Source of the DNA: Hyphomicrobiales bacterium
GTDB taxonomy: Bacteria > Pseudomonadota > Alphaproteobacteria > Rhizobiales > Rhizobiaceae
Assembly: GCA_900472175.1 (NCBI GenBank)
Contig: UCHD01000004.1
Location: forward strand, 62,001 to 126,000
Length of the DNA stretch: 64,000 bases
Direction: 5' to 3'
Shown: positions 3,407 to 26,834 of the stretch, piece by piece
Numbering within the stretch: the first letter of the stretch is position 1
How the letters are laid out: every line of letters begins with the position of its first letter
Notes under the pieces: model-generated
Seen by the model: only the letters and a program-made list of their open reading frames with translations
Databases searched by the model: none
Told to the model about the DNA's origin: nothing
Made by a program: the position numbers and the translations under genes

Positions 3407-4201
3407 GTGACGGACAGTGACGCTTTTACCGAAAATCTGCGTTTTGCCTGCGCCACCCGCCCGTCGATCTCGCAGATTTGCCGGGAGATCGGCATCAACC
3501 GCCAGCAATTCAACCGGTATATTTCCGGTGAGGCCAAGCCGTCGGCGCACAACCTTGCCCGTATCGCTACATTCTTCGGGCTAGGGGCTCAGGACTTTTC
3601 GCTTGCCGTGCCCGAATTCCAGACACGCATGACACGTCCGGTGCAGCGCAAGGTCGATGGCGGTCTTCTGCTGGAAGGGCTTCCGGGCGACCTGGTGTCG
3701 CTTCGCCGTCACCTGGGCTACTTCCAGACTTATCATCTTTCGCCGTCGTGGCCGGGTCTCGTCGTCTGTTCCTGCGCCCGGCTTCTCGAGGAAAACGGTT
3801 CCGTTCACGTCAAGTCAATCGAGCGCATCCACGATGCTGCCCATGAAATCCGGCAATACTCGAAATATATCGGGCTTGCGGCTTTCTTGAGAAACCGCGT
3901 TTTCATCACAGAACGCAGTGTCAGCCGGCAGCCGATGATGTCGCAGACGATCCTGATGCCGTTCGAGGTGCACCAGCGGATCTATCTGCGCGGCGTCACC
4001 ATGGGGGTCTCCTGGCGCAAGGAAAACCTGCCTTATGCCTCGCGGGTCATCTGGCGCCACCTCGGCACAAATCCGGACAAGCGGCAGGTACTGTCCCGCT
4101 GCGGCGTGTTGCCGGAGAACGCGCGGCAATTGCCGGCGACAGTGCGGGATTACCTAGATGCCCCGTCGTCCGGCATCCTGTCCGTTCCGGAAATTTTCTG
4201 A
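3407..4201 (+). CDS. XRE-family helix-turn-helix transcriptional regulator
   Basis: The N-terminal region (about residues 15-55) is an XRE-type helix-turn-helix with the pattern SISQICREIGINRQQFNRYI followed by GEAKPSAHNLARIA. The remaining 200 residues form an effector or oligomerisation domain that I cannot name. GTG at 3407 is preferred as start because AAGGGAC lies about 7 bases upstream; a GTG at 3383 in the same frame has no ribosome binding site. The gene is divergent from the binding-protein/hydrolase pair across a short intergenic region, so it probably regulates that pair and perhaps the transporter operon. Confidence 0.82.
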   Translation: MTDSDAFTENLRFACATRPSISQICREIGINRQQFNRYISGEAKPSAHNLARIATFFGLGAQDFSLAVPEFQTRMTRPVQRKVDGGLLLEGLPGDLVSLRRHLGYFQTYHLSPSWPGLVVCSCARLLEENGSVHVKSIERIHDAAHEIRQYSKYIGLAAFLRNRVFITERSVSRQPMMSQTILMPFEVHQRIYLRGVTMGVSWRKENLPYASRVIWRHLGTNPDKRQVLSRCGVLPENARQLPATVRDYLDAPSSGILSVPEIF

Positions 4202-10118: not shown

Positions 10119-10901
10119 TTATTTTCCCTTCCAGACCGGGTCGCGTTTTTCCGCAAAGGCACGTGCGCCTTCCAACTGGTCGTCACTCGAATAAAGAATG
10201 TCGACTGTCTTGAACTGGCGCTTGGTGATCTTGTTCATCGTCGTCTGGAAATCCTCGCCCTCGGCGGCGCGGACCACTTCCTTGATGGCGGCGTAAACCA
10301 GCGGTGGGCCGCTTTCGAGCAGGCGGGCGAGGTCCCAGGCGCGCTCCATCAGTTTGTCAGCGGGCAGAATTTCGTTGACGAAGCCCCAGCGATTGGCTTC
10401 TGCCGCATCCAGCCAGCGGCCGGTGAACAGCATGTCCATGGCGATATGGTAGGGGATGCGCTTGGGCAGCTTGATCGAGGCGGCGTCGGCAACGGTGCCG
10501 GAGCGGATTTCCGGCAGCGCGAAGGTCGCGTGTTCGGCCGCCAGGATCATGTCGGTCGAAAGAGCAATCTCAAGCCCACCGCCACAGCAGATGCCGTTGA
10601 TGGCGGCGATGACCGGCTTGTTGAGGTCGCGCAGTTCCTGCAGGCCGCCGAAACCGCCAATGCCGTAATCGCCATCGACCGCGTCACCGCCGGCTGCGGC
10701 CTTCAGATCCCATCCTGGACAGAAGAATTTTTCACCGGCGCCGGTAATGATCGCGACACGCAAGGTGTCGTCATCGCGAAAGCCGGCGAAGATTTCGCCC
10801 ATGACACGGCTGGTCACCAGATCGATCGCGTTGGCCTTCGGCCGATCGATGGTGACTTCGAGAATGCCGCCTTCGCGGCGTGTTCTGATAGGTCCGGTCA
10901 T
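10119..10901 (-). CDS. caiD: Enoyl-CoA hydratase/isomerase family, probable crotonobetainyl-CoA (carnitinyl-CoA) hydratase
   Basis: A 260-residue crotonase-fold protein. The oxyanion-hole region (GAGEKFFCPGWDLKAA), the NGICCGGGLEIAL segment and the FALPEIRSGTVAD segment with the catalytic-type Glu are present. In this operon it would hydrate crotonobetainyl-CoA to carnitinyl-CoA, linking gamma-butyrobetaine activation to carnitine. It starts 4 bases after the CoA ligase gene, with an AAGGAA site. The family assignment is firm; the substrate comes from the neighbouring carnitine dehydrogenase and BKACE genes. Confidence 0.8.
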   Translation of the reverse strand: MTGPIRTRREGGILEVTIDRPKANAIDLVTSRVMGEIFAGFRDDDTLRVAIITGAGEKFFCPGWDLKAAAGGDAVDGDYGIGGFGGLQELRDLNKPVIAAINGICCGGGLEIALSTDMILAAEHATFALPEIRSGTVADAASIKLPKRIPYHIAMDMLFTGRWLDAAEANRWGFVNEILPADKLMERAWDLARLLESGPPLVYAAIKEVVRAAEGEDFQTTMNKITKRQFKTVDILYSSDDQLEGARAFAEKRDPVWKGK

Positions 10902-10905
10902 AGGG

Positions 10906-12960
10906 TCATTTCCTTCGACGGATCAGGGCATCGGCTGCAACGGTTCCAGACCCTTGCGGCAAGACCATGATAGGATTGATATCGAGTTCTTCGAGCTTTG
11001 AAGCGTTTGCAGCGACATAGGATGCTACAGCAGCGACAGCTGTAATAAGGGCAGCCACATCGCCTGCCGGACCGCCGCGATAGCCATCGAGCAGCTTTCT
11101 GATTTTCAGGCCGGAAATGGCCTCACCGATGGCCTCCCGTGCCGTTGGAAGGGTCAAAATCGCCGAATCTTCCAATAATTCCACCAGAATACCGCCTGCG
11201 CCGATGGTGAGCACCAGACCGGCGACGGGATCGCGCAGCGCGCCGACGATGATTTCGGCGACGGGTTTTGCAATCATTTTTTCGACGAGATAACCGGATG
11301 CGACACCTTTCATGGCGTCGGCTGCGTCCAGCACGGACTGGCGGTCACCAAGGTTGAGCTTGACGGCGCCTGCTTCGGTCTTGTGGGCAACGCCAAGGCC
11401 CTTCAGCACGACCGGAAATCCGAGCGCTTCGGCTGCATTTGCTGCTTCATCCGCATTGGCTGCTGTTTTTCCCGTGGGCACCACGAGACCGAATGCTGCC
11501 AGTTCAGCCTTGGCCGCGCTTTCGCTGATCGTGATGATTTCTCCCTCTTGCGCGCCTGCGGACAGAAGGGGGGCGGGCGCCGGTTTTGCCCAGATCGCAC
11601 CGATACCGGCCGAAATTTCGGCAGCGGCGAGGGCTTCATCGATGCCAGAGAAGGCAACGACGCCCGACGCCATCAGAGACAAAGCTGTTTCTTCCGGCAT
11701 GTTTTCACCGAGGCTGGCGACGATACCGGCAACGGCCCCGGTCGCCTTGGCAGAGGCGATGACAGCTTCGCAGGTGGTGTTCCAGTCGGCGGCGTCGCAG
11801 CGATCCTGGCGGGGGAAGTCGAGAACGATCAAGTTCAGCGCGTAATCGCCCTTCATCATCGCGGTAAACGCCGTCGTCTGTTTTTCGAGGTTGCCCCAGA
11901 CGAAGGTGTGGTAGTCGAGCGGATTGGCGATGGTGACCATTTCGCCCAGGCTTTCGCGCAGCGGCAGGCGTTGTTCGTCCTTCAGAGCCCGGAACACGGT
12001 TTTCCGCTTCACCCCGGCATCCGCCATCAAGGACGCTTCGCCGCCCGAGCAGCTCATCGACGAGATATCGAAGCTCTTCAGCGGCGGATGCAGGTGGAGC
12101 AGTTTTAGGGTTTCTAGCAGTTCCGGCAGCGTATCGACCCGGCCGATGCCCAGACGCTCGAGCACTGCCCCGGAAACGGCGTCATTACCCGCAAGCGAAG
12201 CAGTGTGAGAAACCGTTGCCAGCTGGGCGGCCTCGGACTTTCCGACCTTGAGGGTGACGACCGGCTTTTTCAGTTCGCGCGCCCGCGTGGCCAGCCTTTG
12301 CAGAGCCTCGATGCTGTCGAAGCCCTCAATGTGCAGGCCGACGGCTGTGACGCGCGGATCTTCGAGCGCTGCGATGGCAAGCTCGGAGAGGCCCGTCTGC
12401 GCCTGGTTTCCGGCCGTCATGATATAGGCGAGCGGCAGGCCGCGCATCTGCATCGATATATTGCAGGCGATGTTGGACGACTGGGTGAGAACGGCGACGC
12501 CGCGCTCGACGCGCTGCATGCCATGCTGGTCCGGCCAGAGCAGGGCGCCATCGAGCGCGTTGATGAAACCGTAGCAGTTGGGGCCGACAATCGGCATGTC
12601 ACCGGCAGCTGCCACCAGCGCTTCCTGCAGGTCGTTGCCATCGGCGAGTTCGCTGACGGCCTCGCGAAAGCCGGAGGCATAGCAGATGGCGCCACCGGCG
12701 CCGCGGGCGGACAGGTCGCGGATAATGTCAATGGTCAGCTGGCGGTTGACGCCGACAAAGGAGGCGTCGGGGGCAGCCGGAAGTTCGGCCACCGAGCGGT
12801 AGCAACGGCGTCCGAGGATTTCGTCCTGCTTTGGATGCACCGGCCAGATCTCGCCGGTAAACCCCATCTTGTCGCATTGTTCGATGACCCGGCGCGCCTC
12901 CTTGCCGCCGAAGACGGCGATGGATTTGGGCCGGATCAGACGGTCGAGAGAGCGTGTCAT
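10906..12960 (-). CDS. NDP-forming acyl-CoA synthetase (acetate-CoA ligase family)
   Basis: A 684-residue protein of the ADP-forming acyl-CoA synthetase family. In order it has an N-terminal CoA-binding Rossmann domain (LIRPKSIAVFGG), succinyl-CoA-synthetase-like flavodoxin domains, and a C-terminal ATP-grasp domain (about 480-684, with FPVVLKGLGVAHKTEAGAVK). It would join CoA to a carboxylate, here probably gamma-butyrobetaine or carnitine. The ATG at 12960 lies 7 bases after the acyl-CoA dehydrogenase stop; the frame is open farther upstream, but only inside the preceding gene. This differs from the AMP-forming CaiC of enterobacteria. Confidence 0.85.
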   Translation of the reverse strand: MTRSLDRLIRPKSIAVFGGKEARRVIEQCDKMGFTGEIWPVHPKQDEILGRRCYRSVAELPAAPDASFVGVNRQLTIDIIRDLSARGAGGAICYASGFREAVSELADGNDLQEALVAAAGDMPIVGPNCYGFINALDGALLWPDQHGMQRVERGVAVLTQSSNIACNISMQMRGLPLAYIMTAGNQAQTGLSELAIAALEDPRVTAVGLHIEGFDSIEALQRLATRARELKKPVVTLKVGKSEAAQLATVSHTASLAGNDAVSGAVLERLGIGRVDTLPELLETLKLLHLHPPLKSFDISSMSCSGGEASLMADAGVKRKTVFRALKDEQRLPLRESLGEMVTIANPLDYHTFVWGNLEKQTTAFTAMMKGDYALNLIVLDFPRQDRCDAADWNTTCEAVIASAKATGAVAGIVASLGENMPEETALSLMASGVVAFSGIDEALAAAEISAGIGAIWAKPAPAPLLSAGAQEGEIITISESAAKAELAAFGLVVPTGKTAANADEAANAAEALGFPVVLKGLGVAHKTEAGAVKLNLGDRQSVLDAADAMKGVASGYLVEKMIAKPVAEIIVGALRDPVAGLVLTIGAGGILVELLEDSAILTLPTAREAIGEAISGLKIRKLLDGYRGGPAGDVAALITAVAAVASYVAANASKLEELDINPIMVLPQGSGTVAADALIRRRK

Positions 12961-12967
12961 GGATCGA

Positions 12968-14128
12968 TCACGCTCCCAACGGACGCAGCAGGTCGCGGCT
13001 GATGATATGCCGCTGGATTTCCGAGGTTCCGTCCCAGATGCGCTCGACACGGGCGTCGCGCCAGAACCGCGCGATCGGCAGATCATCCATTAGACCCATG
13101 CCGCCAAAGATCTGGATTGCCTGGTCGGTGACACGGGCAAGCATTTCCGAGGCATAGAGCTTGGCCGACGCGATTTCCCGGTTGGCGGGCAGCTTCTGGT
13201 CGAGCCGCCAGGCTGCGGCGAGCGTCAGGTAATCGGCGGCATCGATTTCGGTGATCATGTCGGCGAGCTTGAACGAAACACCCTGGTTGGCGCCAATCGG
13301 CTTGCCGAACTGCCTGCGCGCGGCGGCGTAGGGCAGGGCATAATCGAACACCCGGCGGGCGCGGCCGACGCAGGTGGCAGCAACGGTGATGCGGGTGGCA
13401 TAGAGCCAGTCATTGGCGATATCGAAACCCTTGTGCACTTCGCCGAGAATGGCCGAGGAGGGCAGGCGGCAATCGTCGAAGGACAGGATGCAGTTCTTGT
13501 AGCCGCGATGGGAGACGCTGTCGTAGCCGTTGCGGATTTCGAAGCCCGGCGTGCCGCGATCGACGAGGAAGCAGGTGATCTTCTTCTTTGGACCGCGCGG
13601 GGTTTCTTCCTCGCCCGTGGCGATGAAGACGATGACGAAATCAGCGATGTTGGCATGCGAAATGAAATGCTTGGTGCCGTTGACGATCCAGTCGTCTCCG
13701 TCCTGTCTGGCAAAACACTTCATGCCGCGCACATCTGAGCCGGCATCCGGCTCGGTCATGGCGAGTGTGTCGAACTTTTCGCCCTTGACCGCCGGGATCA
13801 GGTATTTTTCGCGCTGCTCGTCATTGCAGGCCATCAGGATACCGGAGGGACGGCCAAAGAACACGGTGAGACCCATGGAGCCGCGGCCAAGTTCGCGCTC
13901 GACCAGCGTAAATGTCTGGTGATCGAGCCCCGCGCCGCCGACTTCCTCGGGCATGTTGCAGGCGAAAAAGCCGAGATCCTTGCACTTGCGCACAATTTCC
14001 TGGCCGAGTTCCTTCGGCACGATGCCGGTGCGCTCGACCTCGTTCTCATGCGGATAGATTTCCGTCTCGACGAAGCCGCGCACGGTGTCGACGATCATCT
14101 GTTGTTCTTCGGTCAGTGCGAAATCCAT
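12968..14128 (-). CDS. Acyl-CoA dehydrogenase, probable gamma-butyrobetainyl-CoA dehydrogenase
   Basis: A 386-residue FAD flavoprotein with standard acyl-CoA dehydrogenase layout: an N-terminal helical domain (FALTEEQQMIVDTVRGF), the flavin loop LAMTEPDAGSDVRG, and the C-terminal helical domain with QIFGGMGLMDDLPIARFWRDAR and WDGTSEIQR. In this operon it would oxidise gamma-butyrobetainyl-CoA to crotonobetainyl-CoA, the substrate of the downstream hydratase. The gene lies 128 bases after the carnitine dehydrogenase gene, a gap filled mostly by a palindromic repeat. The substrate is inferred from context. Confidence 0.87.
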   Translation of the reverse strand: MDFALTEEQQMIVDTVRGFVETEIYPHENEVERTGIVPKELGQEIVRKCKDLGFFACNMPEEVGGAGLDHQTFTLVERELGRGSMGLTVFFGRPSGILMACNDEQREKYLIPAVKGEKFDTLAMTEPDAGSDVRGMKCFARQDGDDWIVNGTKHFISHANIADFVIVFIATGEEETPRGPKKKITCFLVDRGTPGFEIRNGYDSVSHRGYKNCILSFDDCRLPSSAILGEVHKGFDIANDWLYATRITVAATCVGRARRVFDYALPYAAARRQFGKPIGANQGVSFKLADMITEIDAADYLTLAAAWRLDQKLPANREIASAKLYASEMLARVTDQAIQIFGGMGLMDDLPIARFWRDARVERIWDGTSEIQRHIISRDLLRPLGA

Positions 14129-14179
14129 GATGTGTTCCCTCGTATTTTTATTCGGGTCGTGGCCTCTCCTCAGACCTGC

Positions 14180-14243
14180 CCCCCACCCTAACCCTCTCCC
14201 CGCAGGCGGGGAGAAGGTGGCCGATAGGCCGGATGAGCGGCAA
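14180..14243. repeat. RIME-like palindromic repeat element
   Basis: The stretch contains CTCTCCCCGC-agg-CGGGGAG followed by TGGCC-gata-GGCC, the usual two-hairpin build of rhizobial intergenic mosaic elements. Related copies lie at 15777-15893 and, inside a coding sequence, at 18941-19077. Confidence 0.75.
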
Positions 14244-14256
14244 CTCCGCCGTCCGC

Positions 14257-15747
14257 CTATCGCTTCTGCCCAACGGCACGCCCCACACCGTCCGGCTTCG
14301 GCAGTGAGGCATGCGCCTCGGCAATCGCCTTGACCTTGCCCAGCACCGAGGCCGGCGCGGGCACGGCCTTGCTCTCCTTGGACGAAACATGCAGCATCAT
14401 CTGCTCGGCGGTGGCGACGGCATCGTTGGTCTCGGCATTGTAGATGGTCGAGAAGATGTGCAGGCGCTTCTCGTCGTAGGACAGGATTTGGCAGGTCGAA
14501 TACAGCGCATCGCCGAGCTTGGCTTCGCCGAGGTTCCGGATATGGGTCTCGACGGTGTAGTAGCTGTGGCCGTTCTTCACATACTCCAGATCGACGCCGA
14601 TCAGGCGCAGCACGCCATCGGAGGTGTCGCCGAAGACCTGTAGGTATCGGTGCTCGGTCATGTGGCCGTTATAATCGACCCAGGCGGCATTGACCTTGGT
14701 GTCGAGGATGCGGATCGGCTGAGCCTGACCCAGATCGGTCGACGGCTTTTCGGCGTTGGCCCAGAGGCTGTCTTCGAAATCGGCGAGCAGCTTGCCCGCA
14801 CCCCAGCCCTTGCCGCCGTCGCCGCTTTTCAGCGCGTGCATGATGCCGACGAGATTTTCGTCGCGGATGCGCTCGAGTTCGCGAATGCCGCGGGCGCCGG
14901 ACTGCGCATCGGACTGGCCGGCGATCTTGTTGACCAGCTCGTCATCGAGATCGACGACGTCCATCAGCTTGGTCCAGGGCCATGAGAGGCAGGGGCCAAA
15001 CTGGGCGAGGAAGTGGCGCATGCCGGCTTCGCCACCTGCGATACGGTAGGTCTCGAACATGCCCATCTGCGCCCAGCGCATGCCGAAGGAATAGCGGATC
15101 ACATCGTCGAGCGTTTCGGTGTCGCAGATGTCGTCCTTGATCAGCCACAGACCTTCGCGCCAGACGGCCTCGAGCAGGCGGTCGCCGACGAAAGCCTCGA
15201 TCTCCTTGTTAATGATCACGCCCTTCATGCCGATCGGCGCGAGCTTTGCCTTGGCGTCCTGCAGCGTCGCCTTGGCGGTCTTTTCGCCACCGACGAGTTC
15301 GGCGAGCGGCAGAAGGTAGACCGGATTATAGGGATGGGCGACGAACATGCGCTCTGGATGCTTCATGTCGCGCTGCAGGTCCGTCGGCATGATGCCCGAT
15401 GTGGACGAACCGATCAGCGCCTTCGGGTCGGCAGCCGCATCGATCTGGGTAATGACATTGCGCTTCAGGTCAACGCGCTCAGGCACGCTTTCCTGAATCC
15501 AGTCAGCGCCTTGCACTGCTTCCTCAATGCTCTTGACGAAGGTCAGTTTGCCCTTTGGAGGCAGCGGCGCCATGGTCAGCATCGCATAGGCGCGCTCGGC
15601 ATTGCCAAGCACTTCGCCGACGATGCGTTCCGCCTCCGGATGCGGATCGAACATGTTGACGTCGATACCGGCGAGCAGGAAGCGCGCGGCCCAGGCCCCT
15701 CCGATAACGCCGCCGCCGATACAGGCCGCCTTGGTAATTTTGGTCAT
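14257..15747 (-). CDS. lcdH: L-carnitine dehydrogenase fused to a betainyl-CoA thioesterase domain
   Basis: The 496-residue protein has an N-terminal 3-hydroxyacyl-CoA-dehydrogenase-like NAD domain (GGGVIGGAW at 11-19), its helical C-domain to about residue 310, and a hotdog thioesterase domain from about 340 (VNAAWVDYNGHMTEHRYL). Carnitine dehydrogenase oxidises L-carnitine to 3-dehydrocarnitine; the thioesterase domain would release glycine betaine from betainyl-CoA made by the BKACE enzyme. This fusion is known for rhizobial carnitine dehydrogenases, whereas Pseudomonas has separate genes. ATG 15747 is chosen because AGGGA lies upstream and it starts directly before the Rossmann strand. 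Confidence 0.9.
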   Translation of the reverse strand: MTKITKAACIGGGVIGGAWAARFLLAGIDVNMFDPHPEAERIVGEVLGNAERAYAMLTMAPLPPKGKLTFVKSIEEAVQGADWIQESVPERVDLKRNVITQIDAAADPKALIGSSTSGIMPTDLQRDMKHPERMFVAHPYNPVYLLPLAELVGGEKTAKATLQDAKAKLAPIGMKGVIINKEIEAFVGDRLLEAVWREGLWLIKDDICDTETLDDVIRYSFGMRWAQMGMFETYRIAGGEAGMRHFLAQFGPCLSWPWTKLMDVVDLDDELVNKIAGQSDAQSGARGIRELERIRDENLVGIMHALKSGDGGKGWGAGKLLADFEDSLWANAEKPSTDLGQAQPIRILDTKVNAAWVDYNGHMTEHRYLQVFGDTSDGVLRLIGVDLEYVKNGHSYYTVETHIRNLGEAKLGDALYSTCQILSYDEKRLHIFSTIYNAETNDAVATAEQMMLHVSSKESKAVPAPASVLGKVKAIAEAHASLPKPDGVGRAVGQKR

Positions 15748-15776
15748 GGTTGTCGTGTTCCCTCTTTGATTGTTTT

Positions 15777-15893
15777 CCCTCTCCCCGTTCACGGGGAGAG
15801 GGTTAGGGTGAGGGGCCGTTGCCGACAGCGTTCGAAGCCCCTCATCCGCCCTACGGGCACCTTCTCCCCGCGGGCGGGGAGAAGGGAGGCTTC
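15777..15893. repeat. RIME-like composite palindromic repeat
   Basis: Two nested hairpins: CCCTCTCCCCGT-tc-ACGGGGAGAGGG (15777-15802), and a second unit from about 15833 with CCTTCTCCCCGC-gg-GCGGGGAGAAGG and an outer GAAGCC/GGCTTC stem. The element fills the gap between the BKACE and carnitine dehydrogenase genes and touches the BKACE stop codon. It could form strong RNA structures in the operon transcript. Confidence 0.8.
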
Positions 15894-16794
15894 ACCGCTT
15901 CGTCAGCTTCAACTTTTCGCGCACTTCGGCCGGGCCGATGATCCGCGCGCCCATGCCTTCGATGACGCCGACCGCCTTTTCGACGAGCTGCGCGTTAGTA
16001 GCGAGCTGGCCCTTGCCGACATAGAGATTGTCTTCCAGGCCGACGCGGACATTGCCGCCGGCGAGCACCGCCGCGGCCGGATAGGCAAGCGCATTGCGGC
16101 CGATCGAGAAGGCGGAGAAGGTCCAGTTCGAGGGAACGTTGTTGACCATCGCCATGAAGGTGTTGAGGTCATCCGGTGCGCCCCACGGAATGCCCATGCA
16201 CAGCTGGATCAGGACCGGATCCTCGATCAGGCCTTCTTCAACGAGCTGCTTGGCGAACCAGAGATGGCCGGTGTCAAAGGCCTCGATTTCAGGACGCACA
16301 CCAAGATCGGTCATCATCTTGGCCATGGCGCGCAGCATCGATGGCGTGTTGGTCATGACGTAGTCGCCGAGCGAAAAGTTCATCGTGCCGCAATCGAGCG
16401 TGCAGATTTCCGGCAGGCATTCGGCGACGTGGGAGACACGCTCGGTAGCACCTGCCATGTCGGTGCCATTGGGATTGAGTGGCAGCGGCTTTTCGACGTT
16501 GCCAAAAATCATGTCGCCGCCCATGCCGGCCGTCAGGTTGAGCACCACGTCGACATCGGCGGAGCGGATGAGGTCGGTGACTTCCTTGTAGAGGTCGTTG
16601 CGGCGGCTCGGCGCGCCGGTTTCCGGATCGCGCACATGACAGTGGACGATGGCGGCACCCGCCTTTGCGGCATCGATGGCCGATGCCGCAATCTGCTTTG
16701 GCGATCGCGGTACATGCGGCGACTTGCCGGCGGTATCGCCGGATCCGGTGACTGCACACGTGATGAAAACGTCGCGGTTCATGCTCAATGGCAT
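15892..16794 (-). CDS. cdhC: BKACE (DUF849) dehydrocarnitine cleavage enzyme
   Basis: A 300-residue beta-keto acid cleavage enzyme. The zinc-binding HCHVRDPETG motif is at about residues 47-56, and the conserved FDTGHLWFAKQL segment is present. It would convert 3-dehydrocarnitine plus acetyl-CoA to acetoacetate and betainyl-CoA, passing betainyl-CoA to the thioesterase domain of the next protein. ATG 16794 has GGAGG 6 bases upstream, so the longer in-frame start at 16824 is rejected. It is the first gene of the catabolic operon and divergent from the regulator gene. Confidence 0.88.
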   Translation of the reverse strand: MPLSMNRDVFITCAVTGSGDTAGKSPHVPRSPKQIAASAIDAAKAGAAIVHCHVRDPETGAPSRRNDLYKEVTDLIRSADVDVVLNLTAGMGGDMIFGNVEKPLPLNPNGTDMAGATERVSHVAECLPEICTLDCGTMNFSLGDYVMTNTPSMLRAMAKMMTDLGVRPEIEAFDTGHLWFAKQLVEEGLIEDPVLIQLCMGIPWGAPDDLNTFMAMVNNVPSNWTFSAFSIGRNALAYPAAAVLAGGNVRVGLEDNLYVGKGQLATNAQLVEKAVGVIEGMGARIIGPAEVREKLKLTKR

Positions 16795-16809
16795 AAAAGG
16801 CCTCCCCTT

Positions 16810-16838
16810 GTTCTTGACTTGCATTACGAGCCAAGAAC
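16810..16838. promoter_or_regulatory. Candidate operator between cdhC and cdhR
   Basis: GTTCTTG (16810-16816) and CAAGAAC (16832-16838) form a perfect inverted repeat with a 15-base spacer in the divergent promoter region. Spacing of two helical turns between half-site centres fits an AraC-type or other dimeric regulator. Confidence 0.4.
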
Positions 16839-17962: not shown

Positions 17963-19378
17963 TCAATCGAAAGTAACTGCGATGCCGGATGTTTCATCCG
18001 CCGTCATCATGCCGAACATGGCTTCCGCCACCTGCCGCGAAAGCGCGTTTTTCTGCCAGGCCAGCGACAGGCTTTGCATATAATCCGGGCCGAGCCTGCG
18101 CATGGCCGGGGCGTTTCGCACGCGGGCTGCCGAGCTTTCCGGCAACACCGAAAGATAGCCGTGGTCCATTACCAGATTGAGGATGACCGGGATCGAATCA
18201 ACCTCGGTCAATGTCAGCCGGCTGCGTTCCTGTTCATTCAGCGCCGCGTCGATAAAATGGGCGGCCTGCTGGCGCAGGCCACTCTTCAGGCTGGGGACCG
18301 CGATCGGATTGGATTGCAGCAATGCGCCGATATCGTCGCCGTGTTTTGCAAAGAGTGAGGGATGACCAGCCAACGCCAATGGCGTGCGTGAAATCAGCTT
18401 GCCTTCGAATTCCGGCGGGAAGGTTTCGAGGTCCAGCAACACCACGTCGAAGCGGCGGTTCTTTAATCCGGCGATCAGTTCATCGGCGGTGGCGCTCGAC
18501 ACGAATAGCGGCTGGCGCGGCCGGGCACGATGCCACTTGGCCGTCAGCGCCGCCAGCATGCGGGCGATCTCGCTTTCAGGCCCAAGCGGCATGACCGAGC
18601 CGAAACGCCAGGTCGCCGCCGCGCGGCGGAACCGGTCGCCGGACGCGCGGGACAGCCTGCGCCAGATTTCCAGCAGATTTTCAATGATCGGGATCACCGC
18701 CAGCCCTTCGGGCGTGCAGGTGATGCCGGAAGGCGAACGGATCAACAGCGTGTAACCCAGATCACCCTCGAGGTCGCTCATCTGCCGCGTCAGTTGCGGC
18801 TGGCCGGTTGCCGATACCTTAGCCGCGCTGCGGATACTGCCGCTACGGGCGACCGTGACGAAGCGCTCCAGTGCCGTCAGGCTGATGGAGGGGATGGGCC
18901 AGACGGATATCGAACCGGGAATGTCAGCGTTGGCGATGGTCTCCCTCTTCTCCCCAGCGGGGAGACGTGCCGAGCGGATGCGAGGCGATGAGGGGGCTTT
19001 TTCCGCGACTTCGGAACTTGCCGTCCCCCTCATCCGGCCCTGTGGGCCACCTTCTCCCCGTTGGGGAGAAGAGGGAGCTTGCTGGAAGACCTCATACGAT
19101 GGTTGAGGTTCTGCCTGAGGATTTGAGGTCGGTGAAGGCCGTAACAGCAACTGGATCGCCGCGTTGGCTGCCGTAAGGTCCGCCATCCGGCTTTGTGCCT
19201 CCAGCGTCGGCACCAGATTGCCCCGTTCGCGCCGGACGAGCGGGACCGCGATGGCGGCCTCGAACCGTTTAAGGGCAGCGCTGACACTTGCGGGTGGCCT
19301 GCCGCTTGCCTTTGCTGCCCGGCGGATTCCTTGATGCTCAAGGATCGCGTGGATCAGGGAAAGGGTGGCAATGTCCAT
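17963..19378 (-). CDS. LysR-family regulator with two helix-turn-helix domains and an embedded repeat element
   Basis: The 471-residue protein has a first LysR-type winged helix (about 1-60, MDIATLSLIHAILEHQG, then RRAAKASGRPPASVSAALKRFE), a low-complexity linker (about 75-160), a second LysR helix-turn-helix (SLTALERFVTVARSGSIRSA, then GQPQLTRQMSDLEGDLGY) and a C-terminal effector-binding domain. The linker includes about 46 residues encoded by a palindromic repeat. It is divergent from the ergothionase-like operon and is its probable regulator. ATG 19378 is the domain-based start; in-frame starts at 19441, 19453 and 19504 cannot be excluded. Usual LysR proteins have about 300 residues. Confidence 0.8.
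   Translation of the reverse strand: MDIATLSLIHAILEHQGIRRAAKASGRPPASVSAALKRFEAAIAVPLVRRERGNLVPTLEAQSRMADLTAANAAIQLLLRPSPTSNPQAEPQPSYEVFQQAPSSPQRGEGGPQGRMRGTASSEVAEKAPSSPRIRSARLPAGEKRETIANADIPGSISVWPIPSISLTALERFVTVARSGSIRSAAKVSATGQPQLTRQMSDLEGDLGYTLLIRSPSGITCTPEGLAVIPIIENLLEIWRRLSRASGDRFRRAAATWRFGSVMPLGPESEIARMLAALTAKWHRARPRQPLFVSSATADELIAGLKNRRFDVVLLDLETFPPEFEGKLISRTPLALAGHPSLFAKHGDDIGALLQSNPIAVPSLKSGLRQQAAHFIDAALNEQERSRLTLTEVDSIPVILNLVMDHGYLSVLPESSAARVRNAPAMRRLGPDYMQSLSLAWQKNALSRQVAEAMFGMMTADETSGIAVTFD
18941..19077. repeat. RIME-like palindromic element inserted in frame in the LysR gene
   Basis: The 137-base element is bounded by perfect 16-base inverted repeats: CTCCCTCTTCTCCCCA at 18941-18956 and its complement at 19062-19077. 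Inside are the typical ATCCGGCCCTGTGGGCCAC and GATGAGGGGG segments of rhizobial intergenic elements. It is read through on the minus strand as residues about 101-146 of the regulator, with the typical peptide APSSPQRGEGGPQGRMRG, without stop or frameshift. Confidence 0.8.
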
Positions 19379-19481: not shown

Positions 19482-19517
19482 TGGGCATAGCATGCTGCCA
19501 ACAAGGTGAGTCAAAGC

Positions 19518-21056
19518 ATGCATGCATCGGTGAAAACCATCGTCCTCAACGGCAATCCGCTCGACTTCTCCGCACTGGAGAAAATCGGCTCGGGCCTGTT
19601 CGTGCCGGTCGTGTCCGAGCAGTCGTTCGAGCGGGTTGATACGGCCCACAAGGTCATCGCCGACCGTATCGCCATGGGCCTGCCGGTCTATGGCGCCAAT
19701 ACCGGTGTCGGCTCGATGAAGGACCGGCTTTGGACGGTCGATGATCTCGCGGAATTCAATACAGCGCTGGTCAAGGCGCATCATTTCGGCACCGGCCCGC
19801 TGTTTTCTCAAGCCATTGTCCGCAAGGCCATTGCCATCCGCATCAACACGGCGCTCGGCGGCCATACGGGCTGCAGCGTCGACCTCGTCAAGGCATTTTT
19901 GGGACTTCTCGAGCGTGGCGTCGTGCCGGCGGTGCATCGCCATGGCTCGATCGGCTGCGCGGATATCGGCTTGATGGGGCAGGTCGCCTCCGTGCTGACC
20001 GGCACCGGCCAGGCTTTTTTCGAGGGCGAATTGCTGGACGCCGATGAAGCCTTGCGCCGCGCCGGCCTCGAATCCTTTGTCATGTTGCCGCGCGATGCAC
20101 TGGCCGCCCTCAGCGTCAACGCGACGGCTTTTGCCGCTGCCGCCGACGTTTTGCGGGAGGCCGCCTCGGCCGTGCGCGTGCTGATGACGACCGGGCTGAT
20201 GTCGTCGCTGGCGCTCGGCGCCTCGGCCGACCCTTGGCGGGTGGCAGCGACGCTGGGTACACGCGGCGAGGCGCTGGTCGGCTCCTGGCTTTACGGCCAG
20301 TCCGATTGTGTCGATTGGCCGCTGCCGACGGCGATCCATGATCCATTGAGCCTTCGCATGACCGCCCAGGTTTTTGGCGCGGCCGTCGATACGCTGCTGG
20401 TTGCCGCCGAGCGGCTGGTTGATGCGACCTATCTTTCCGATGACAATCCGGTGGTGTTGGGTGGGCAGGTGCATGCCTCCGGTGCCTCTCTGCCGCTAAC
20501 GACGACGCTCTATATCGAGACGGCACAGATCGCCTTTTCGCATGTGGCGCGCAATGTGCTGAACCGCTGCATCCTTCTCTCCAACGGCGTGCGGCGAAAC
20601 CTGCCGGTCAATCTCGTTGCACAGGGCGAGATCGCCAGCGGTCTCGGACCTCTGATGAAGCTGGTGGTGGAACTCTATATGCGCGTCCAGTCGCTGGCGG
20701 TTCCCTTGTCGGCACAGTCGATTGTCGTTGCCGGTGGACTGGAGGAGGAGGCGACTTTCCTGCCGCTGATCGTCGAGCGCATGGAGACACAGGTCCGCGA
20801 TCTCCGGCAAATGGCGGCAATCGAGGCGATGCTTTCGGCCCAGGCGGTCGATCTGCTCGGCGATACGCCGCAGGGCGTTACCCAGATTGCCTATGACCGG
20901 GTGCGGGCAGTCAGCCCCACCTATCTCAAGGACCGGCCGCTCTCCAACGAGATCGAAGTGCTGCATCATGATTTTGCCTGCGGCCGTTTGCTGGAGGAAA
21001 TCGTGACAGCGGCGCCAATGCCGGAATTCGACACTTTCTTCGCGCTCGGACAGTAG
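19518..21056 (+). CDS. MIO-less histidine-ammonia-lyase homologue, probable ergothionase (ergothioneine trimethylamine-lyase)
   Basis: The 512-residue protein has the aromatic amino acid lyase fold: LPVYGANTGVGSMKD near residue 58, HGSIG before residue 147, and DDNPVV later. In histidine ammonia-lyase the HGSIG-like segment is followed by Ala-Ser-Gly, which cyclises to the MIO cofactor. Here the residues are Cys147-Ala148-Asp149, so MIO cannot form. Known ergothionases are lyases of this family that work without MIO and eliminate trimethylamine from ergothioneine to give thiourocanate. The neighbouring urocanase, DUF917, hydantoinase and carbamoylase genes support this. ATG 19518 follows an AAGGTGA site; GTG 19506 is less likely. 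Confidence 0.82.
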   Translation: MHASVKTIVLNGNPLDFSALEKIGSGLFVPVVSEQSFERVDTAHKVIADRIAMGLPVYGANTGVGSMKDRLWTVDDLAEFNTALVKAHHFGTGPLFSQAIVRKAIAIRINTALGGHTGCSVDLVKAFLGLLERGVVPAVHRHGSIGCADIGLMGQVASVLTGTGQAFFEGELLDADEALRRAGLESFVMLPRDALAALSVNATAFAAAADVLREAASAVRVLMTTGLMSSLALGASADPWRVAATLGTRGEALVGSWLYGQSDCVDWPLPTAIHDPLSLRMTAQVFGAAVDTLLVAAERLVDATYLSDDNPVVLGGQVHASGASLPLTTTLYIETAQIAFSHVARNVLNRCILLSNGVRRNLPVNLVAQGEIASGLGPLMKLVVELYMRVQSLAVPLSAQSIVVAGGLEEEATFLPLIVERMETQVRDLRQMAAIEAMLSAQAVDLLGDTPQGVTQIAYDRVRAVSPTYLKDRPLSNEIEVLHHDFACGRLLEEIVTAAPMPEFDTFFALGQ

Positions 21057-21067
21057 AGGAAACAACA

Positions 21068-22447
21068 ATGTCTGACTTCGATCTGGTTTTGAAAGGCACT
21101 GTTGTTCTCGCCGATCGCATCGTCGAAGGCGGATTTGTCGCTGTGCGTGACGGCAAGGTACAATTTACAGGGCAGGGCGCCATGCCGTCTGCGCGCGAAC
21201 GCCATGACCTCGGCAGCGCGTTGATCCTGCCCGGCGCAATCGACGCACAGACGCATTCTCTGTCCCAGAAGGACCAGGAGGATTTTATCTGGTCGACGCG
21301 CTCGGCCGCTGCCGGAGGCGTGACGACAATCGTCGATATGCCCTATGACGAGGGCAATCTGGTCTGCTCGGGGCAGGCCGTCCAGCGCAAGATCGATCAC
21401 GCCGGTAAACAGGCACGCGTCGATTTCGCGCTTTATGGCACGATCGACCCGGAAGAGGGCCCGGCGCGGATCGGCGAAATGGTCGATGCCGGTGTTGCCG
21501 CCTTCAAGTTCTCGACTTTTGGTACGGACCCGAAACGGTTTCCGCGCATTCCGGCCGGCCTGCTGGAGGATTGTTTTGCAGCCATTGCACCCACCGGTCT
21601 GGCTGCGGGCGTGCACAACGAGGACGACGAGGCGGTGCGGGCCGCAATCGACAAGGTCAAGGCGGCGGGTATCACCGATTACCGCGCCCACGGCCTGTCG
21701 CGCCCGCCACTGACAGAGCTGCTTGCCACCAATCAGATTTATGAAACCGGCGCTGCCACCGGTTGCCCGGCCCATGTCGTGCACTGCTCCGTCGGTCGGG
21801 GCTACGATATCGCGAGCGCCTACCGGGCGCAGGGTTTTCACGCCACGATCGAATGCTGCATTCATTATCTCATTCTCGATGAGGAAAACGATGTGAGGCG
21901 GCTGGGCGGCAAGGCGAAGATCAATCCGCCGATCCGGCCGCGGGCTGAAGTCGAGAAACTCTGGCGGCACGTGGCTGATGGCAAGGTGACGATGGTCTCG
22001 ACCGATCACGTCAGCTGGTCGGAAAATCGCAAGACCAATCCGGACATGCTGGCCAACGCGTCGGGCGTGCCGGGGCTGGAAGTGATGATCCCGCTGTTCA
22101 TCAAAGGTGCGCTGGAGCGCGGTATTCCGCTGACGCGCGCGGCCGAACTGATGGCGCTCAATCCAGCCCGCCATTTCCGGCTGGATCACCAGAAGGGTGC
22201 TCTCGAAACCGGCAAGGATGCGGATATCGCTGTGCTGATACCGGCACCGTATACCTACGATGCCGATGAAAGCGGCAACAATGTTGTCGGCTGGTCGCCT
22301 TACAACGGTATTCGCCTGCCGTGGCGAGTGGCTGCGACCTATAACCGGGGCGCACAGGTTTTTGACGGCAAGACGGTGCTGGCAGCGCCGGGTGCAGGTC
22401 AGTTCATCCGGCCACTGGCAAGCCTGCCGTTGCGCGGGGCGCTCTGA
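21068..22447 (+). CDS. Dihydropyrimidinase/hydantoinase-like amidohydrolase
   Basis: A 459-residue cyclic amidohydrolase of the dihydroorotase/hydantoinase group. It has the strand LPGAIDAQTHS (about 57), the AFKFSTFG segment with the Lys that is usually carboxylated, HNEDD, AHVVHCS and the late STDHVSW aspartate. The first metal motif, usually HxH, reads Gln-Thr-His here, so one metal ligand is changed. In the proposed pathway it opens hydantoin-5-propionate to N-carbamoyl-glutamate. It lies 11 bases after the lyase gene and overlaps the next gene by one base (TGATG). Confidence 0.85.
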   Translation: MSDFDLVLKGTVVLADRIVEGGFVAVRDGKVQFTGQGAMPSARERHDLGSALILPGAIDAQTHSLSQKDQEDFIWSTRSAAAGGVTTIVDMPYDEGNLVCSGQAVQRKIDHAGKQARVDFALYGTIDPEEGPARIGEMVDAGVAAFKFSTFGTDPKRFPRIPAGLLEDCFAAIAPTGLAAGVHNEDDEAVRAAIDKVKAAGITDYRAHGLSRPPLTELLATNQIYETGAATGCPAHVVHCSVGRGYDIASAYRAQGFHATIECCIHYLILDEENDVRRLGGKAKINPPIRPRAEVEKLWRHVADGKVTMVSTDHVSWSENRKTNPDMLANASGVPGLEVMIPLFIKGALERGIPLTRAAELMALNPARHFRLDHQKGALETGKDADIAVLIPAPYTYDADESGNNVVGWSPYNGIRLPWRVAATYNRGAQVFDGKTVLAAPGAGQFIRPLASLPLRGAL

Positions 22448-23715
22448 TGAGCGCAGTGGAAACCAATCTGCCCGTCAATGCAAGCCGTATTGCCGATATC
22501 ATCAAGGCTCTTGCCCGCATCACCGAGCCGGACAAGCCTTATACCCGCCGTGCCTTCACGCCGCTGTTTCTCGATGGCCGCGCCTTCCTCGAACAGCGTT
22601 TCAAGGCTGCGGGCCTGGAAACAAGGATCGATGCCTCCGGAAACATGATCGGCCGCCGCAAGGGGCGGAAATCGGCGCTCGGGACGATCATGCTCGGGTC
22701 GCATTCCGATACGGTGCCGGAAGGCGGGCGTTTCGATGGGATTGCGGGCGTCGCGGCAGCGCTGGAAGTGGCGCAGGCGCTCAACGAGGCTGGTATCCGG
22801 CTCGATCACGATCTGGAGGTTGTCGATTTCCTGGCCGAGGAAGTATCGATCTTCGGTGTCTCCTGCGTCGGTAGCCGTGGGCTGGCAGGATTGATCCCGG
22901 ATGGCTGGCTGAGCCGGACGCAAGGGGAACTGACTCTACGGCAGGGTATCATCGACGCGGGTGGCGACCCGTCGCGGCTGTCGCGGCAGAAGCGCTCGGA
23001 TATCAGGGCTTTTCTGGAATTGCATATCGAGCAGGGGCCGGTGCTGGAAGCCGAACGCTGTGATATCGGCATCGTGACGGCGATTGCGGGAATTACCCGC
23101 ATCGAAATCCTCTTCGAAGGCCAGGCAGATCATGCCGGCACGACGCCGATGGGCCGCAGGCGCGATGCGCTGGTCGCTGCCGCGCGGATGGTTGGCGCGG
23201 TCGAGCGGCTGGCATTGGAATATGCGCAAGGCGAGGGGCATTTTACCGCGACGGTGGGCGAATTCTCGATCGAGCCGAATGCCGCCAATGTCGTGCCGTC
23301 GCGGGCCCGCATCCTGATTGATGCCCGCGCGGAATTGCGGCCCGACATGGAGCGGTTCATTGCTGAGATCGATCAGCTTGCCGTTGATATTCAGCGCGAG
23401 ACCGGTGTCTCGATAGCCTCGCCTAAGCTGATTTCAGACAATTTTCCGACGCCTGCCGATCCGCTTGTCATGGTCAATCTCGAACAGGCCAGTGATCGTG
23501 TCGGCGCCAAGCGCCGCCGCATGGCGTCGGGTGCCGGGCATGACACGGCCTGGATGGCGCGGATTTCCAAGTCGGCGATGATCTTCATCGCCTGCCGCGA
23601 TGGGCGCTCGCATACGCCGGACGAATGGGCCGAGAATGACGATGTGGCGCTCGGTACAGCTGTTTTGTTTGAGGCGGTGCGCAAACTTGACGTTGATTTA
23701 CAGGGAGAGCCGTAA
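22447..23715 (+). CDS. M20-family Zn-dependent N-carbamoyl-L-amino acid amidohydrolase
   Basis: A 422-residue hydrolase of the allantoate amidohydrolase/L-carbamoylase/beta-ureidopropionase family. The dinuclear-metal motifs are clear: GSHSDTVPEGGRFDG, FLAEEVSIFG and ELHIEQGPVLE, with the substrate-binding DHAGTTPMGRRRDAL and the C-terminal SGAGHDTAWMA. In the proposed route it hydrolyses N-carbamoyl-L-glutamate to glutamate, ammonia and carbon dioxide. It overlaps both neighbours by one base, showing tight co-translation. Confidence 0.9.
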   Translation: MSAVETNLPVNASRIADIIKALARITEPDKPYTRRAFTPLFLDGRAFLEQRFKAAGLETRIDASGNMIGRRKGRKSALGTIMLGSHSDTVPEGGRFDGIAGVAAALEVAQALNEAGIRLDHDLEVVDFLAEEVSIFGVSCVGSRGLAGLIPDGWLSRTQGELTLRQGIIDAGGDPSRLSRQKRSDIRAFLELHIEQGPVLEAERCDIGIVTAIAGITRIEILFEGQADHAGTTPMGRRRDALVAAARMVGAVERLALEYAQGEGHFTATVGEFSIEPNAANVVPSRARILIDARAELRPDMERFIAEIDQLAVDIQRETGVSIASPKLISDNFPTPADPLVMVNLEQASDRVGAKRRRMASGAGHDTAWMARISKSAMIFIACRDGRSHTPDEWAENDDVALGTAVLFEAVRKLDVDLQGEP

Positions 23716-24806
23716 TGGGCCGGATACTGACTGAAAAAGACGTCGAGGCGGCCGTCAAGGGCGGATCGGTCTATGCGGCGGGCGGCGGCGGCTGGGCCGA
23801 TCATGGCCGCATGCTGGGTTATGCGGCCGTGTCGATCGGCAAGCCCGAACTGGTCTCCATCGATGAGCTTGATGCCAACGATTGGGTGGCGACAGCAGCC
23901 GCCATCGGCGCGCCTGCCTCGACCACACCTTGGGAAATGCGCGGTGTCGATTACGTCAAGGCGGTCGAGCTGCTGCAGGAGGCGTTGGGTGAGAAGGTTT
24001 CGGCCTTGATGGTCGGGCAGAACGGCAAGTCATCGACGCTGAACGGCTGGCTGCCCTCGGCAATCCTCGGCACCAAGGTTCTGGATGCCGTTGGCGACAT
24101 GCGCGCGCATCCGACCGGCGACATGGGCTCGATCGGCATGGCCGGCTCGCCCGAGCAGATGATCCAGACCGCTGTTGGCGGCAATCGCGACAAGAACCGC
24201 TATATCGAGCTGGTGGTTCGCGGCGCCACAGCCAAGGTGTCGCCGATTCTCCGCACGGCATCGGATATGTCCGGCGGTTTCATCGCCTCCTGCCGCAATC
24301 CGCTCAGGGCCTCCTATGTCCGCAACAATGCGGCGCTTGGCGGGATTTCGCTGGCCCTGACTCTGGGTGAGGCGATCATCGCGGCGGAAGGCAAGGGCGG
24401 CAGTGCCATCATCGATACTATTGCCAAGACCACCAACGGCACGATCCTGGCCGAAGGCGTGATCACCGATAAATCCGTCGTCTACACTAAGGAAGCCTTC
24501 GATATCGGCACGGTTACCTTGGGGAAGGGCGATGACTCGACGGTCCTTCACATCATGAACGAATACATGGCCGTCGAGGATGCCGGAGGCACGCGGCTTG
24601 CTACCTTCCCCGACGTCATCACCACGCTGTCGCCGGAGGGAGAGCCGCTGAGCGTCGGGCAGCTGCAGGTGGGCATGAGGATTTTCGTGCTGCATGTGCC
24701 GAAGACCGTTATTCCGCTGGCGTCGAGCGTGCTCGATCCCAGCGTCTATCCCTCGGTGGAGAAGGCGATGGGGATCGAATTGGCGAAATACGCGTTGGCC
24801 AAGTGA
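23715..24806 (+). CDS. DUF917 family protein, probable thiohydantoin (or S-methyl-thiohydantoin) desulfurase
   Basis: The 363-residue protein matches the DUF917 family from its start (ILTEKDVEAAVKGGSVYAAGGGG) through the central GNRDKNRYIELVVRG region. Members of this family have been linked to removal of sulfur from thiohydantoins in ergothioneine breakdown, giving hydantoin-5-propionate plus sulfide or methanethiol. It lies between the carbamoylase and the TfoX-like gene, in the same operon as the urocanase homologue that would make its substrate. The family is recognised from sequence; the reaction is inferred from family knowledge and context. Confidence 0.8.
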   Translation: MGRILTEKDVEAAVKGGSVYAAGGGGWADHGRMLGYAAVSIGKPELVSIDELDANDWVATAAAIGAPASTTPWEMRGVDYVKAVELLQEALGEKVSALMVGQNGKSSTLNGWLPSAILGTKVLDAVGDMRAHPTGDMGSIGMAGSPEQMIQTAVGGNRDKNRYIELVVRGATAKVSPILRTASDMSGGFIASCRNPLRASYVRNNAALGGISLALTLGEAIIAAEGKGGSAIIDTIAKTTNGTILAEGVITDKSVVYTKEAFDIGTVTLGKGDDSTVLHIMNEYMAVEDAGGTRLATFPDVITTLSPEGEPLSVGQLQVGMRIFVLHVPKTVIPLASSVLDPSVYPSVEKAMGIELAKYALAK

Positions 24807-24818: not shown

Positions 24819-25148
24819 GTGGCACGCGACAGGGACCTGGAAGACATCATTCGCGCCGATCTCGGTTATCGCGCCGGGCTCTCCGAAAAGACCATGTTCG
24901 GCGGACTGGCCTGGCTTCTCGACGGTAACCTGCTGTGCGGGGCGCGCGACGAGGGTATGCTGGTCCGGCTCGGCAAGGGCAATGACAGCTGGGCGCTCGC
25001 CATCGACGGTGTTGCCGCCATGATCATGAACGGCCGCAGGATGGAAGGCTGGGTGCGTGCCTCACCGGCGGTCTGCACGGAAGAAGACACCCGTAAGCGC
25101 TTGATTTCCGGGGCGCTTGCCTTCGTCGATACTCTGCCGCCGAAATAA
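24819..25148 (+). CDS. TfoX N-terminal-domain family protein
   Basis: A 109-residue soluble protein with the TfoX_N pattern: DLGYRAGLSEKTMFGGLAWL near the start, then CGARDEGMLVRLG, and a C-terminal helix. In other bacteria TfoX is a competence regulator, but single-domain proteins like this are widespread and uncharacterised. It lies 12 bases after the DUF917 gene and 27 bases before the urocanase homologue, so it is translated from the catabolic operon. Its role there is unknown. Confidence 0.8.
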   Translation: MARDRDLEDIIRADLGYRAGLSEKTMFGGLAWLLDGNLLCGARDEGMLVRLGKGNDSWALAIDGVAAMIMNGRRMEGWVRASPAVCTEEDTRKRLISGALAFVDTLPPK

Positions 25149-25175: not shown

Positions 25176-26834
25176 ATGCCCAAGCCAAATCGCCGTCACC
25201 CGAATTTTCCGATCCCCGGCGGGCCGGAGCTCCGTGCCAAAGGCTGGCGGCAGGAGGCGTTGTTGCGGCTGCTGGAAAATGTCCTGTCGGTCGGTGAGGA
25301 TCCGGACAATCTGATCGTCTATGCCGCTCTCGGAAAGGCAGCACGCAACTGGGCGTCGCACCGGGCGATCGTCAAGACGCTTCTGGACATGGACGAGGAC
25401 CAGACGCTGGTCATCCAGTCGGGTAAACCGGTGGGGCTCTTGAAGACCCATGCCAGGGCGCCGCTGGTGATCATGGCCAACTGCAATATTGTCGGCCAAT
25501 GGGCAAAGGCCGAAGTGTTCTACGAGCTGGAAAAGCAGGGGTTGATCTGCTGGGGCGGGCTGACAGCGGGCGCATGGCAATATATCGGCAGCCAGGGCGT
25601 CATCCAGGGCACGTACGAAATCTTCATGCGCATTGCCGAAAACCGTTTTGGCGGCGATCTGGCCGGCCGCTTCATCCTGACGGCGGGTCTTGGGGGTATG
25701 GGCGGCGCGCAGCCGCTGGCCGGGCGGATGGCAGGGGCGGCGATCCTGTGCATCGATATCGATCCTGTCCGCGCCGAAAAACGCAAGGCGATCGGCTATC
25801 TCGAACATGTGGCGCCGGATCTCGATACGGCACTTTCGATGATCGATCAGGCCGTCAAGGAGAAGCGCGCGACTTCGATCGGCCTCGTCGGCAATGCGGC
25901 GGCGCTTTATCCGGAAATCGCCAAACGAGGCATTGTGCCGGATATCGTCACCGACCAGACCTCGGCACATGACCTAGTCTACGGTTACGTGCCGAAGGGC
26001 ATGAGCATCGAGGAGGTCAAGCGGCTGCGTGTTGATGGGCAGGGGCAGCTGATGGCAGCCAGCCGTGCGTCGATCGTCGATCACGTCAGGGCGATGCTCG
26101 AATTTCAGGCGAAGGGCGCTGAAGTTTTCGATAACGGCAACCTGATCCGCACCCAGGCGCGCGAAGGCGGCGTTGCCAATGCCTTCGATATCCGTATTTT
26201 CACCGAAGCTTATCTCAGGCCGCTGTTTGCCCGGGCGATTGGCCCCTTCCGCTGGATGGCGCTGTCGGGCGAAGAGAGCGACGTCGCCCGTATCGACGAC
26301 CTTTTGCTGGAAATGTTCCCGGACAACAAGATCGTCACCAATTGGATAAGGCTCGCGCGCGAAAACGTGCCGTTCGAAGGCCTGCCCGCCCGCATCGCCT
26401 GGCTTGGGCATGGCGAACGGACGGAACTGGCCGTGGCGGTCAATTCGCTGGTCGCTTCCGGTGAGCTGAAGGGCCCGGTCGCCTTTTCCCGCGACCATCT
26501 CGATGCCGGTGCCATGGCGCATCCGAACATCATGACCGAACGGATGAAGGACGGCTCCGATGCCATCGCCGATTGGCCGCTGCTCGACGCCATGCTGCTC
26601 TGCTCATCGATGGCCGATCTCGTCGTCGTTCACTCGGGCGGCGGCGGTTATGCCGGTTACATGACCAGCTGCGGCGTTACGGTGATTGCCGATGGCACGG
26701 AGGCCGGAGCAGAGCGGCTCAGTCACGCGCTGACCAATGATACGTCGCTCGGCGTGATCCGTTATGCGGATGCCGGCTATGAAGAATCTCACGATGAGAT
26801 CGAGACGAAAGGGATCGGATATATCCGGACTTGA
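25176..26834 (+). CDS. Urocanase-family hydratase, probable (S-methyl-)thiourocanate hydratase
   Basis: A 552-residue protein with the whole urocanase layout: GKAARNW, QSGKPVGLLKTHARAP, the LTAGAWQYIGSQGVIQGTYE segment, the NAD Rossmann loop GLGGMGGAQPLAG, and the C-terminal FSRDHLDAGAMAHPN and GSDAIADWPLL segments. It is clearly divergent from ordinary HutU, which has LIANSNLVPHWA where this has VIMANCNIVGQWA. No other hut gene for histidine breakdown lies nearby. With a MIO-less lyase in the operon, the substrate is probably thiourocanate or S-methyl-thiourocanate. ATG 25176 follows AAAGGGACC. Confidence 0.85.
   Translation: MPKPNRRHPNFPIPGGPELRAKGWRQEALLRLLENVLSVGEDPDNLIVYAALGKAARNWASHRAIVKTLLDMDEDQTLVIQSGKPVGLLKTHARAPLVIMANCNIVGQWAKAEVFYELEKQGLICWGGLTAGAWQYIGSQGVIQGTYEIFMRIAENRFGGDLAGRFILTAGLGGMGGAQPLAGRMAGAAILCIDIDPVRAEKRKAIGYLEHVAPDLDTALSMIDQAVKEKRATSIGLVGNAAALYPEIAKRGIVPDIVTDQTSAHDLVYGYVPKGMSIEEVKRLRVDGQGQLMAASRASIVDHVRAMLEFQAKGAEVFDNGNLIRTQAREGGVANAFDIRIFTEAYLRPLFARAIGPFRWMALSGEESDVARIDDLLLEMFPDNKIVTNWIRLARENVPFEGLPARIAWLGHGERTELAVAVNSLVASGELKGPVAFSRDHLDAGAMAHPNIMTERMKDGSDAIADWPLLDAMLLCSSMADLVVVHSGGGGYAGYMTSCGVTVIADGTEAGAERLSHALTNDTSLGVIRYADAGYEESHDEIETKGIGYIRT

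Follow-up and report, generated by a model that had tools for sequence, protein, structure and literature searches.

The closest described counterpart of the enzyme considered here is the ergothionase of T. denticola (solved structures 6s7j and 6s7q), for which four catalytic residues have been reported to be essential. A second point of reference is the degradation of ergothioneine in Burkholderia sp. HME13, to which we take the curated models NF058538, NF058540, NF058529 and NF058530 to be linked. Ergothionase is described, in the accessible part of PMC13405746, as lacking MIO and as yielding trimethylamine and thiourocanic acid, and the same part of that source places Agrobacterium radiobacter among its bearers.

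In this study, we analyzed a 64,000-nucleotide stretch (the window) of contig UCHD01000004.1 from a Hyphomicrobiales bacterium (GCA_900472175.1). Its lyase is very probably, judging from sequence comparisons, an ergothionase (ergothioneine trimethylammonia-lyase) that works without MIO and catalyses the opening step of an ert operon, a known route through which soil bacteria use up the antioxidant ergothioneine. A literature search by title, whose coverage left out most subscription papers, returned no study of a rhizobial ert operon. To the earlier description of this DNA the analysis adds the register of the loop, evidence from the operon, residues of diagnostic value, an operon in which the lyase has been swapped and a second triad-less clade in the same genome.

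The lyase gene and its shortened loop

The lyase ORF (19506-21056, +) opens at GTG 19506 and has an ATG at 19518. Translation more likely begins at the ATG, since AAGGTGA is present at 19503-19509, 8 nt upstream of it. Residues are numbered here with GTG 19506 as residue 1; the loop Cys is C151 in this numbering and C147 from ATG 19518. The gene and the sites discussed below are as follows.

19518..21056, + strand: ergothionase-type lyase at the ErtA position, PF00221 Lyase_aromatic, assigned by domain match, operon place and closest solved relative
19689..19691, + strand: Tyr62, equivalent of HAL Tyr53, in 21/21 ert rows, 12/12 HAL (histidine ammonia-lyase) rows and 6s7j
19956..19964, + strand: Cys-Ala-Asp codons TGC-GCG-GAT (C151-A152-D153) after HGSIG, where HALs have Ala-Ser-Gly-Asp
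20658..20660, + strand: Lys385, candidate catalytic residue, in 21/21 ert rows and 6s7j, Val in 12/12 HALs
20742..20744, + strand: Glu413, corresponding to HAL Glu414, conserved across ert rows, 6s7j and HAL rows

The preliminary description of this DNA had Cys-Ala-Asp standing in place of Ala-Ser-Gly after HGSIG. The letters, their place and the loss of the cyclising Ser all held, and the Ala-Ser-Gly triad is not present, but the one-for-one register was off at the Asp. In the alignments, HAL GSVG-A-S-G-D-L lies against GSIG-C-A-D-I, that is, the loop of the window's lyase is one residue shorter. D153 pairs with HAL D145, the Asp that follows the triad, and not with the Gly, which rules out a simple swap of ASG for CAD; the loop Cys aligns with the triad Ala, not with the Ser. 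The alignments disagree on whether the HAL Ser or Gly is the residue lost. The loop of the T. denticola ergothionase, SSIG-E-G-D-I, is equally shortened. A HAL-type protein from the same genome (L002) keeps GSVGASGDLA and provided an internal control; we called it HutH from its sequence and neighbors (HutD by Pfam, and an adjoining second urocanase-family match).

With no Ser in the triad and a loop one residue short, MIO would not be formable by the known route, in agreement with the preliminary description; the loop Cys, the one conceivable substitute for the Ser, is not conserved either.

Closest relatives and active-site residues

The window's lyase matched PF00221 at 257.2 bits (Pfam) and did not reach the cut-off of the curated hutH model TIGR01225 (203.2 bits against 539.15). 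Comparison with ergothionases, proposed as a check in the preliminary description, likewise spoke for a lyase without MIO: the closest solved relative is 6s7j, with the same short loop and Lys, and the gene lies in an ergothioneine-degradation operon. In the phmmer search of solved structures, 6s7j/6s7q was first of 39 (1.3e-55) and the top HAL-named chain gave 8.4e-40. The predicted monomer had a mean pLDDT of 80.4 and a pTM of 0.86, with low confidence in the active-site loops (block means <60 at ~61-80 and 401-420). With this model, Foldseek placed 6s7j first (TMq 0.84; first HAL 0.82), as did VIA-align (Z 38.2, rmsd 2.5 A, 477 aligned), the next best being the HAL 1gkj (Z 36.9, 2.9 A, 488 residues). 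Identity to 6s7j was about 27-28% in these comparisons. The margins over HAL are small, so the fold alone is not decisive.

The tree had long branches and a midpoint root and was used for unrooted splits only. A branch supported at 100/100 separated HALs and the "third" clade from the ert lyases, 6s7j, the lyase of a further complete ert locus (L118) and a Polaromonas lyase, both described below. The ert clade was itself a separate 100/100 group on a long branch, of a kind about which the tree program warns.

Active-site residues were compared in an alignment of 21 ert rows, 12 HAL rows, 6s7j, the L118 lyase, the Polaromonas lyase and 16 "third" clade rows. Tyr62, His92, Arg284 and Glu413 were common to the ert rows, 6s7j and the HALs. 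A second set, D197, N205, L281, D312, K385 and A409, links the ert rows with 6s7j, the L118 lyase and that of Polaromonas, and was found in 0/12 HALs. The HAL counterparts are Val (Lys385), Thr (Asn205), Glu (Asp197), Thr or Ser (Asp312) and Ser (Ala409), with Tyr at the Leu281 position in 11 rows and Phe in the twelfth, which is 1gkj, a Y280F mutant. Leu281 is no mark of ergothionase alone, because Leu was also found in 16/16 "third" clade rows. Ser203, which is Asn in HALs (0/12 with Ser), was present in 20/21 ert rows, as well as in 6s7j and the lyases of L118 and Polaromonas. Two positions set the window's lyase apart from 6s7j: Ser328, which is Phe in 6s7j and HALs, and His278, present in 14/21 ert rows and Gln in 6s7j. 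The overall residue pattern fits a common mechanism with its own acid/base residues, in which we infer the roles of individual residues.

The ert operon

The genes that follow the lyase, and the divergent gene that precedes it, are as follows.

17963..19378, - strand: LysR-type regulator, divergent, with two HTH stretches, start inferred at ORF residue 43
21068..22447, + strand: ErtD, hydantoin-5-propionate amidohydrolase (NF058538, 792.5 bits, cut-off 600)
22447..23715, + strand: ErtE, N-carbamyl-L-glutamate amidohydrolase (NF058540, 608.3 bits, cut-off 520)
23715..24806, + strand: thiohydantoin desulfurase, with S-Me-THD-like domains by Pfam (NF058529, 599.8 bits, cut-off 440)
24819..25148, + strand: small TfoX_N-domain protein within the operon (PF04993, 35.5 bits, cut-off 30.1)
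25176..26834, + strand: thiourocanate hydratase, urocanase family (NF058530, 1044.9 bits, cut-off 930)

Consecutive genes of the operon overlap or are at most 27 nt apart. The TfoX_N gene occurs between the desulfurase and hydratase genes in many relatives, not in all. The LysR-type gene is a likely regulator of the operon. It was caught by a pattern in 9/49 rows tried, and in the window, L014, L016, L018 and L053 it has ~70 extra in-frame residues between the HTH stretches, a segment that holds an inverted repeat (arms 18941-18965 and 19053-19077) and is absent in L022, L023, L050 and L068.

A carnitine-degradation cluster (10119-16824, -) adjoins the operon. It comprises a carnitine dehydrogenase over cut-off, a BKACE enzyme and genes that read as those of an acyl-CoA dehydrogenase and of CoA enzymes. 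Carnitine dehydrogenase was present in 41/43 relative loci, and both routes handle trimethylammonium compounds.

The five ert enzyme genes were found together in 42/43 loci in one scan, and in the remaining locus the contig ends early. Ten further loci were considered, nine from genomes and one from a plasmid record. All five enzymes were present in three of these and six were partial, several with the fetched stretch or contig ending nearby. One of the ten, L068, was without the lyase and ErtE, and near the expected place of the lyase it has a gene reading like a periplasmic binding protein. Among 151 sampled Rhizobiaceae genomes, the lyase was found in 13 (1e-80) and a hydratase over cut-off in 16, with 13/13 lyase bearers having both (Fisher p 2.8e-16, uncorrected for kinship). 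The lyase was found in 11 of 249 sampled genomes of the order (1e-80) and in 5 of 398 sampled from the phylum (1e-60), where all five were within the six genomes with the hydratase.

Three genomes, G236 (from the same order), G660 and G677 (loci L068, L116 and L117), had a hydratase over cut-off, yet the lyases matched in them with the L118 query all bear ASG; these genomes may be without an ergothionase or may have something unseen. A longer lyase frame, 696 aa between stops, was observed at L055:1978-3696 and on contig 189 of G625 (1981-3696), probably one genome. The query aligns to this frame in two segments that overlap (3-365 and 339-515), as an in-frame duplication of part of the gene would produce. 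A search of the window's own genome for EgtD, with one model whose cut-off 0/14 control genomes passed, gave no match, which fits a consumer of ergothioneine rather than a maker.

One genome of the family, G703 (locus L118), has an ert operon with all four other enzymes over their cut-offs and a different lyase. This lyase is 29% identical to that of the window, finds its closest solved relative in 6s7j (4.9e-88) and bears the same short loop (GSVGEADI). Two diverged triad-less lyases thus occupy the same operon slot. The L118 lyase is possibly exported, its N-terminus resembling a signal peptide by reading, although on a crude test of hydrophobicity it could not be told apart from the lyase of the window (2.05 vs 1.79). 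We considered whether the rhizobial ErtA clade is a second, deeply separated lineage of MIO-free trimethylammonia-lyases with its own pocket, perhaps differing in substrate range or catalytic residues. The marks of such a pocket would be Ser rather than Phe at 328 and, often, His rather than Gln at 278, and in L118 a lyase of the T. denticola kind, possibly exported, occupies the slot. This is a tentative proposal that we think rather unlikely.

Function and mechanism

If the window's lyase is an ergothionase, it would convert ergothioneine to thiourocanate and trimethylamine without MIO. A base would take the beta proton of ergothioneine, and the remaining chemistry would fall to acid/base residues that the former HAL pocket has retained or acquired, with Tyr62, Lys385 and Glu413 as candidates. 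The HAL-type electrophile, which activates a primary amine, would be unneeded because the quaternary ammonium group, leaving as trimethylamine, is already a good leaving group. Thiourocanate would then be processed by the hydratase, the desulfurase, ErtD and finally ErtE on the way to L-glutamate; the reactions are read from the family names, and their order is that of the known route from thiourocanate to L-glutamate. Substrate, product and residue roles are all conditional on this assignment, whereas sequence, family, loop register, operon, co-occurrence and selection are directly observed.

There is a small chance that the enzyme, while an MIO-free trimethylammonia-lyase, acts not on ergothioneine but on one of its relatives (ergothioneine sulfonate, S-methyl-ergothioneine or hercynine). 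Its pocket differs from that of 6s7j at S328 and H278, and the reference list in the accessible part of PMC13405746 cites, for A. radiobacter, a 2022 paper whose title names an ergothioneine sulfonate pathway. The scores of the neighboring genes speak for the non-methylated substrates. The operon's hydratase did not reach the S-methyl thiourocanate hydratase model NF058531 (742.2 bits vs 880), nor its desulfurase the S-methyl thiohydantoin desulfurase model NF058532 (281.2 bits vs 450), whereas both passed the non-methylated models (1044.9/930 and 599.8/440), and on these scores the S-methyl-ergothioneine branch was ruled out. In addition, it is hard to see what a pathway for the sulfonate or for hercynine would need a thiohydantoin desulfurase for.

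A different electrophile, self-made from the Cys-Ala-Asp loop, would leave the enzyme an electrophile-dependent ammonia-lyase. Conversion of Cys to dehydroalanine is possible in principle, and a Ser-to-Cys variant of HAL is said to retain activity. Among 61 relative loci tested, of which a few may be one genome in two collections (L043/L109, judged from coordinates), GS[IML]G-x-ADIGLM was found in 60; only L050, whose assembled sequence has a broken frame, was without it. This recurrence shows that Cys-Ala-Asp is not due to chance or sequencing error. The residue x was Cys in 58 loci, Thr in one (L012) and Ala in one (L013), and a role for the loop Cys was ruled out by this variation. The Cys also pairs with the triad Ala rather than the Ser, and the loop is one residue short, equal in length to that of 6s7j, an enzyme reported to be MIO-free in the accessible part of PMC13405746. 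We consider such an electrophile highly improbable.

Loss of the family's hallmark triad could suggest a relic without catalytic activity or a pseudo-enzyme with a regulatory role, but either is scarcely credible given a dN/dS of 0.026-0.087 against six relatives, its place at the head of a conserved catabolic operon and its invariant active-site residues, among them a Lys not found in HALs; the earlier view that this is not random decay stands. Two text patterns gave lower counts because they were too strict: YG.NTGVG was found in 51/60 loci, Asn65 being Thr in 7/21 aligned rows, and the Lys pattern in 47/60, the residues that precede the Lys being variable. The conservation of Lys385 is therefore taken from the 21 chosen rows of the alignment and not from the 60-locus count. 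An MIO-free ergothionase is the reading that we retain.

Other lyases without the triad

In Polaromonas sp. JS666, a plasmid that was typed as conjugative carries a lyase (L066:8902-10521) with the short loop GSVGAADITV and the Lys. The neighbors of this lyase are a binding protein of a tripartite transporter and a gene of the ornithine cyclodeaminase family, not ert genes.

The genome of the window encodes another Lyase_aromatic protein without Ala-Ser-Gly (L003:1456-2949, -; G000 contig 33:22998-24446), with homologues at L078-L100. Its motif, GS[AV]GYL.H, was found in 23/28 family genomes matched at 1e-80, the own genome included, and the other five have ASG lyases. This protein (GSAGYL) is nearer to HAL, with 451.3 bits against the hutH cut-off of 539.15. 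Its loop is three residues shorter, Asn195 is kept and Tyr stands at the Lys385 position in 16/16 aligned rows. The gene lies near hut genes and adjoins those of an ABC transporter, an oxidoreductase of the DAO family and a GntR/UTRA regulator. The L003-type lyase possibly represents an independent loss of MIO.

Comparison with known systems

These observations indicate that a histidine-lyase fold can shed its hallmark cofactor where the leaving group makes the cofactor unnecessary. The four later steps have NCBIfam models, yet the lyase was matched by no NCBIfam ergothionase model; the homologue in Rhizobium sp. SL42, the first gene of the same operon, carries no more specific annotation than "aromatic amino acid ammonia-lyase". 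The short loop G-x-[AG]-D-I together with the Lys offers a simple annotation test for ergothionase-type lyases versus HALs.

Compared with the HALs (L002 and P. putida 1b8f/1gkj), the window's lyase shares the PF00221 family and the equivalents of Tyr53, His83, Arg283 and Glu414. Unlike them, it lacks Ala-Ser-Gly, has Leu at the position of Tyr280 and Ser at that of Asn195, and scores below the hutH cut-off. With the T. denticola ergothionase (6s7j/6s7q) it shares the fold, a loop shortened by one residue relative to HAL and without the Ser, the Asp retained after the loop, Leu for HAL Tyr280, Lys for HAL Val386 and the DDNP motif. It differs from that enzyme in having Cys-Ala-Asp for Glu-Gly-Asp, Ser328 for Phe and His278 for Gln. 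The operon resembles ergothioneine degradation of the Burkholderia sp. HME13 type in that all four downstream functions are over the curated cut-offs (NF058538, NF058540, NF058529 and NF058530). Overall, the locus is most likely explained by a known enzyme and a known pathway.
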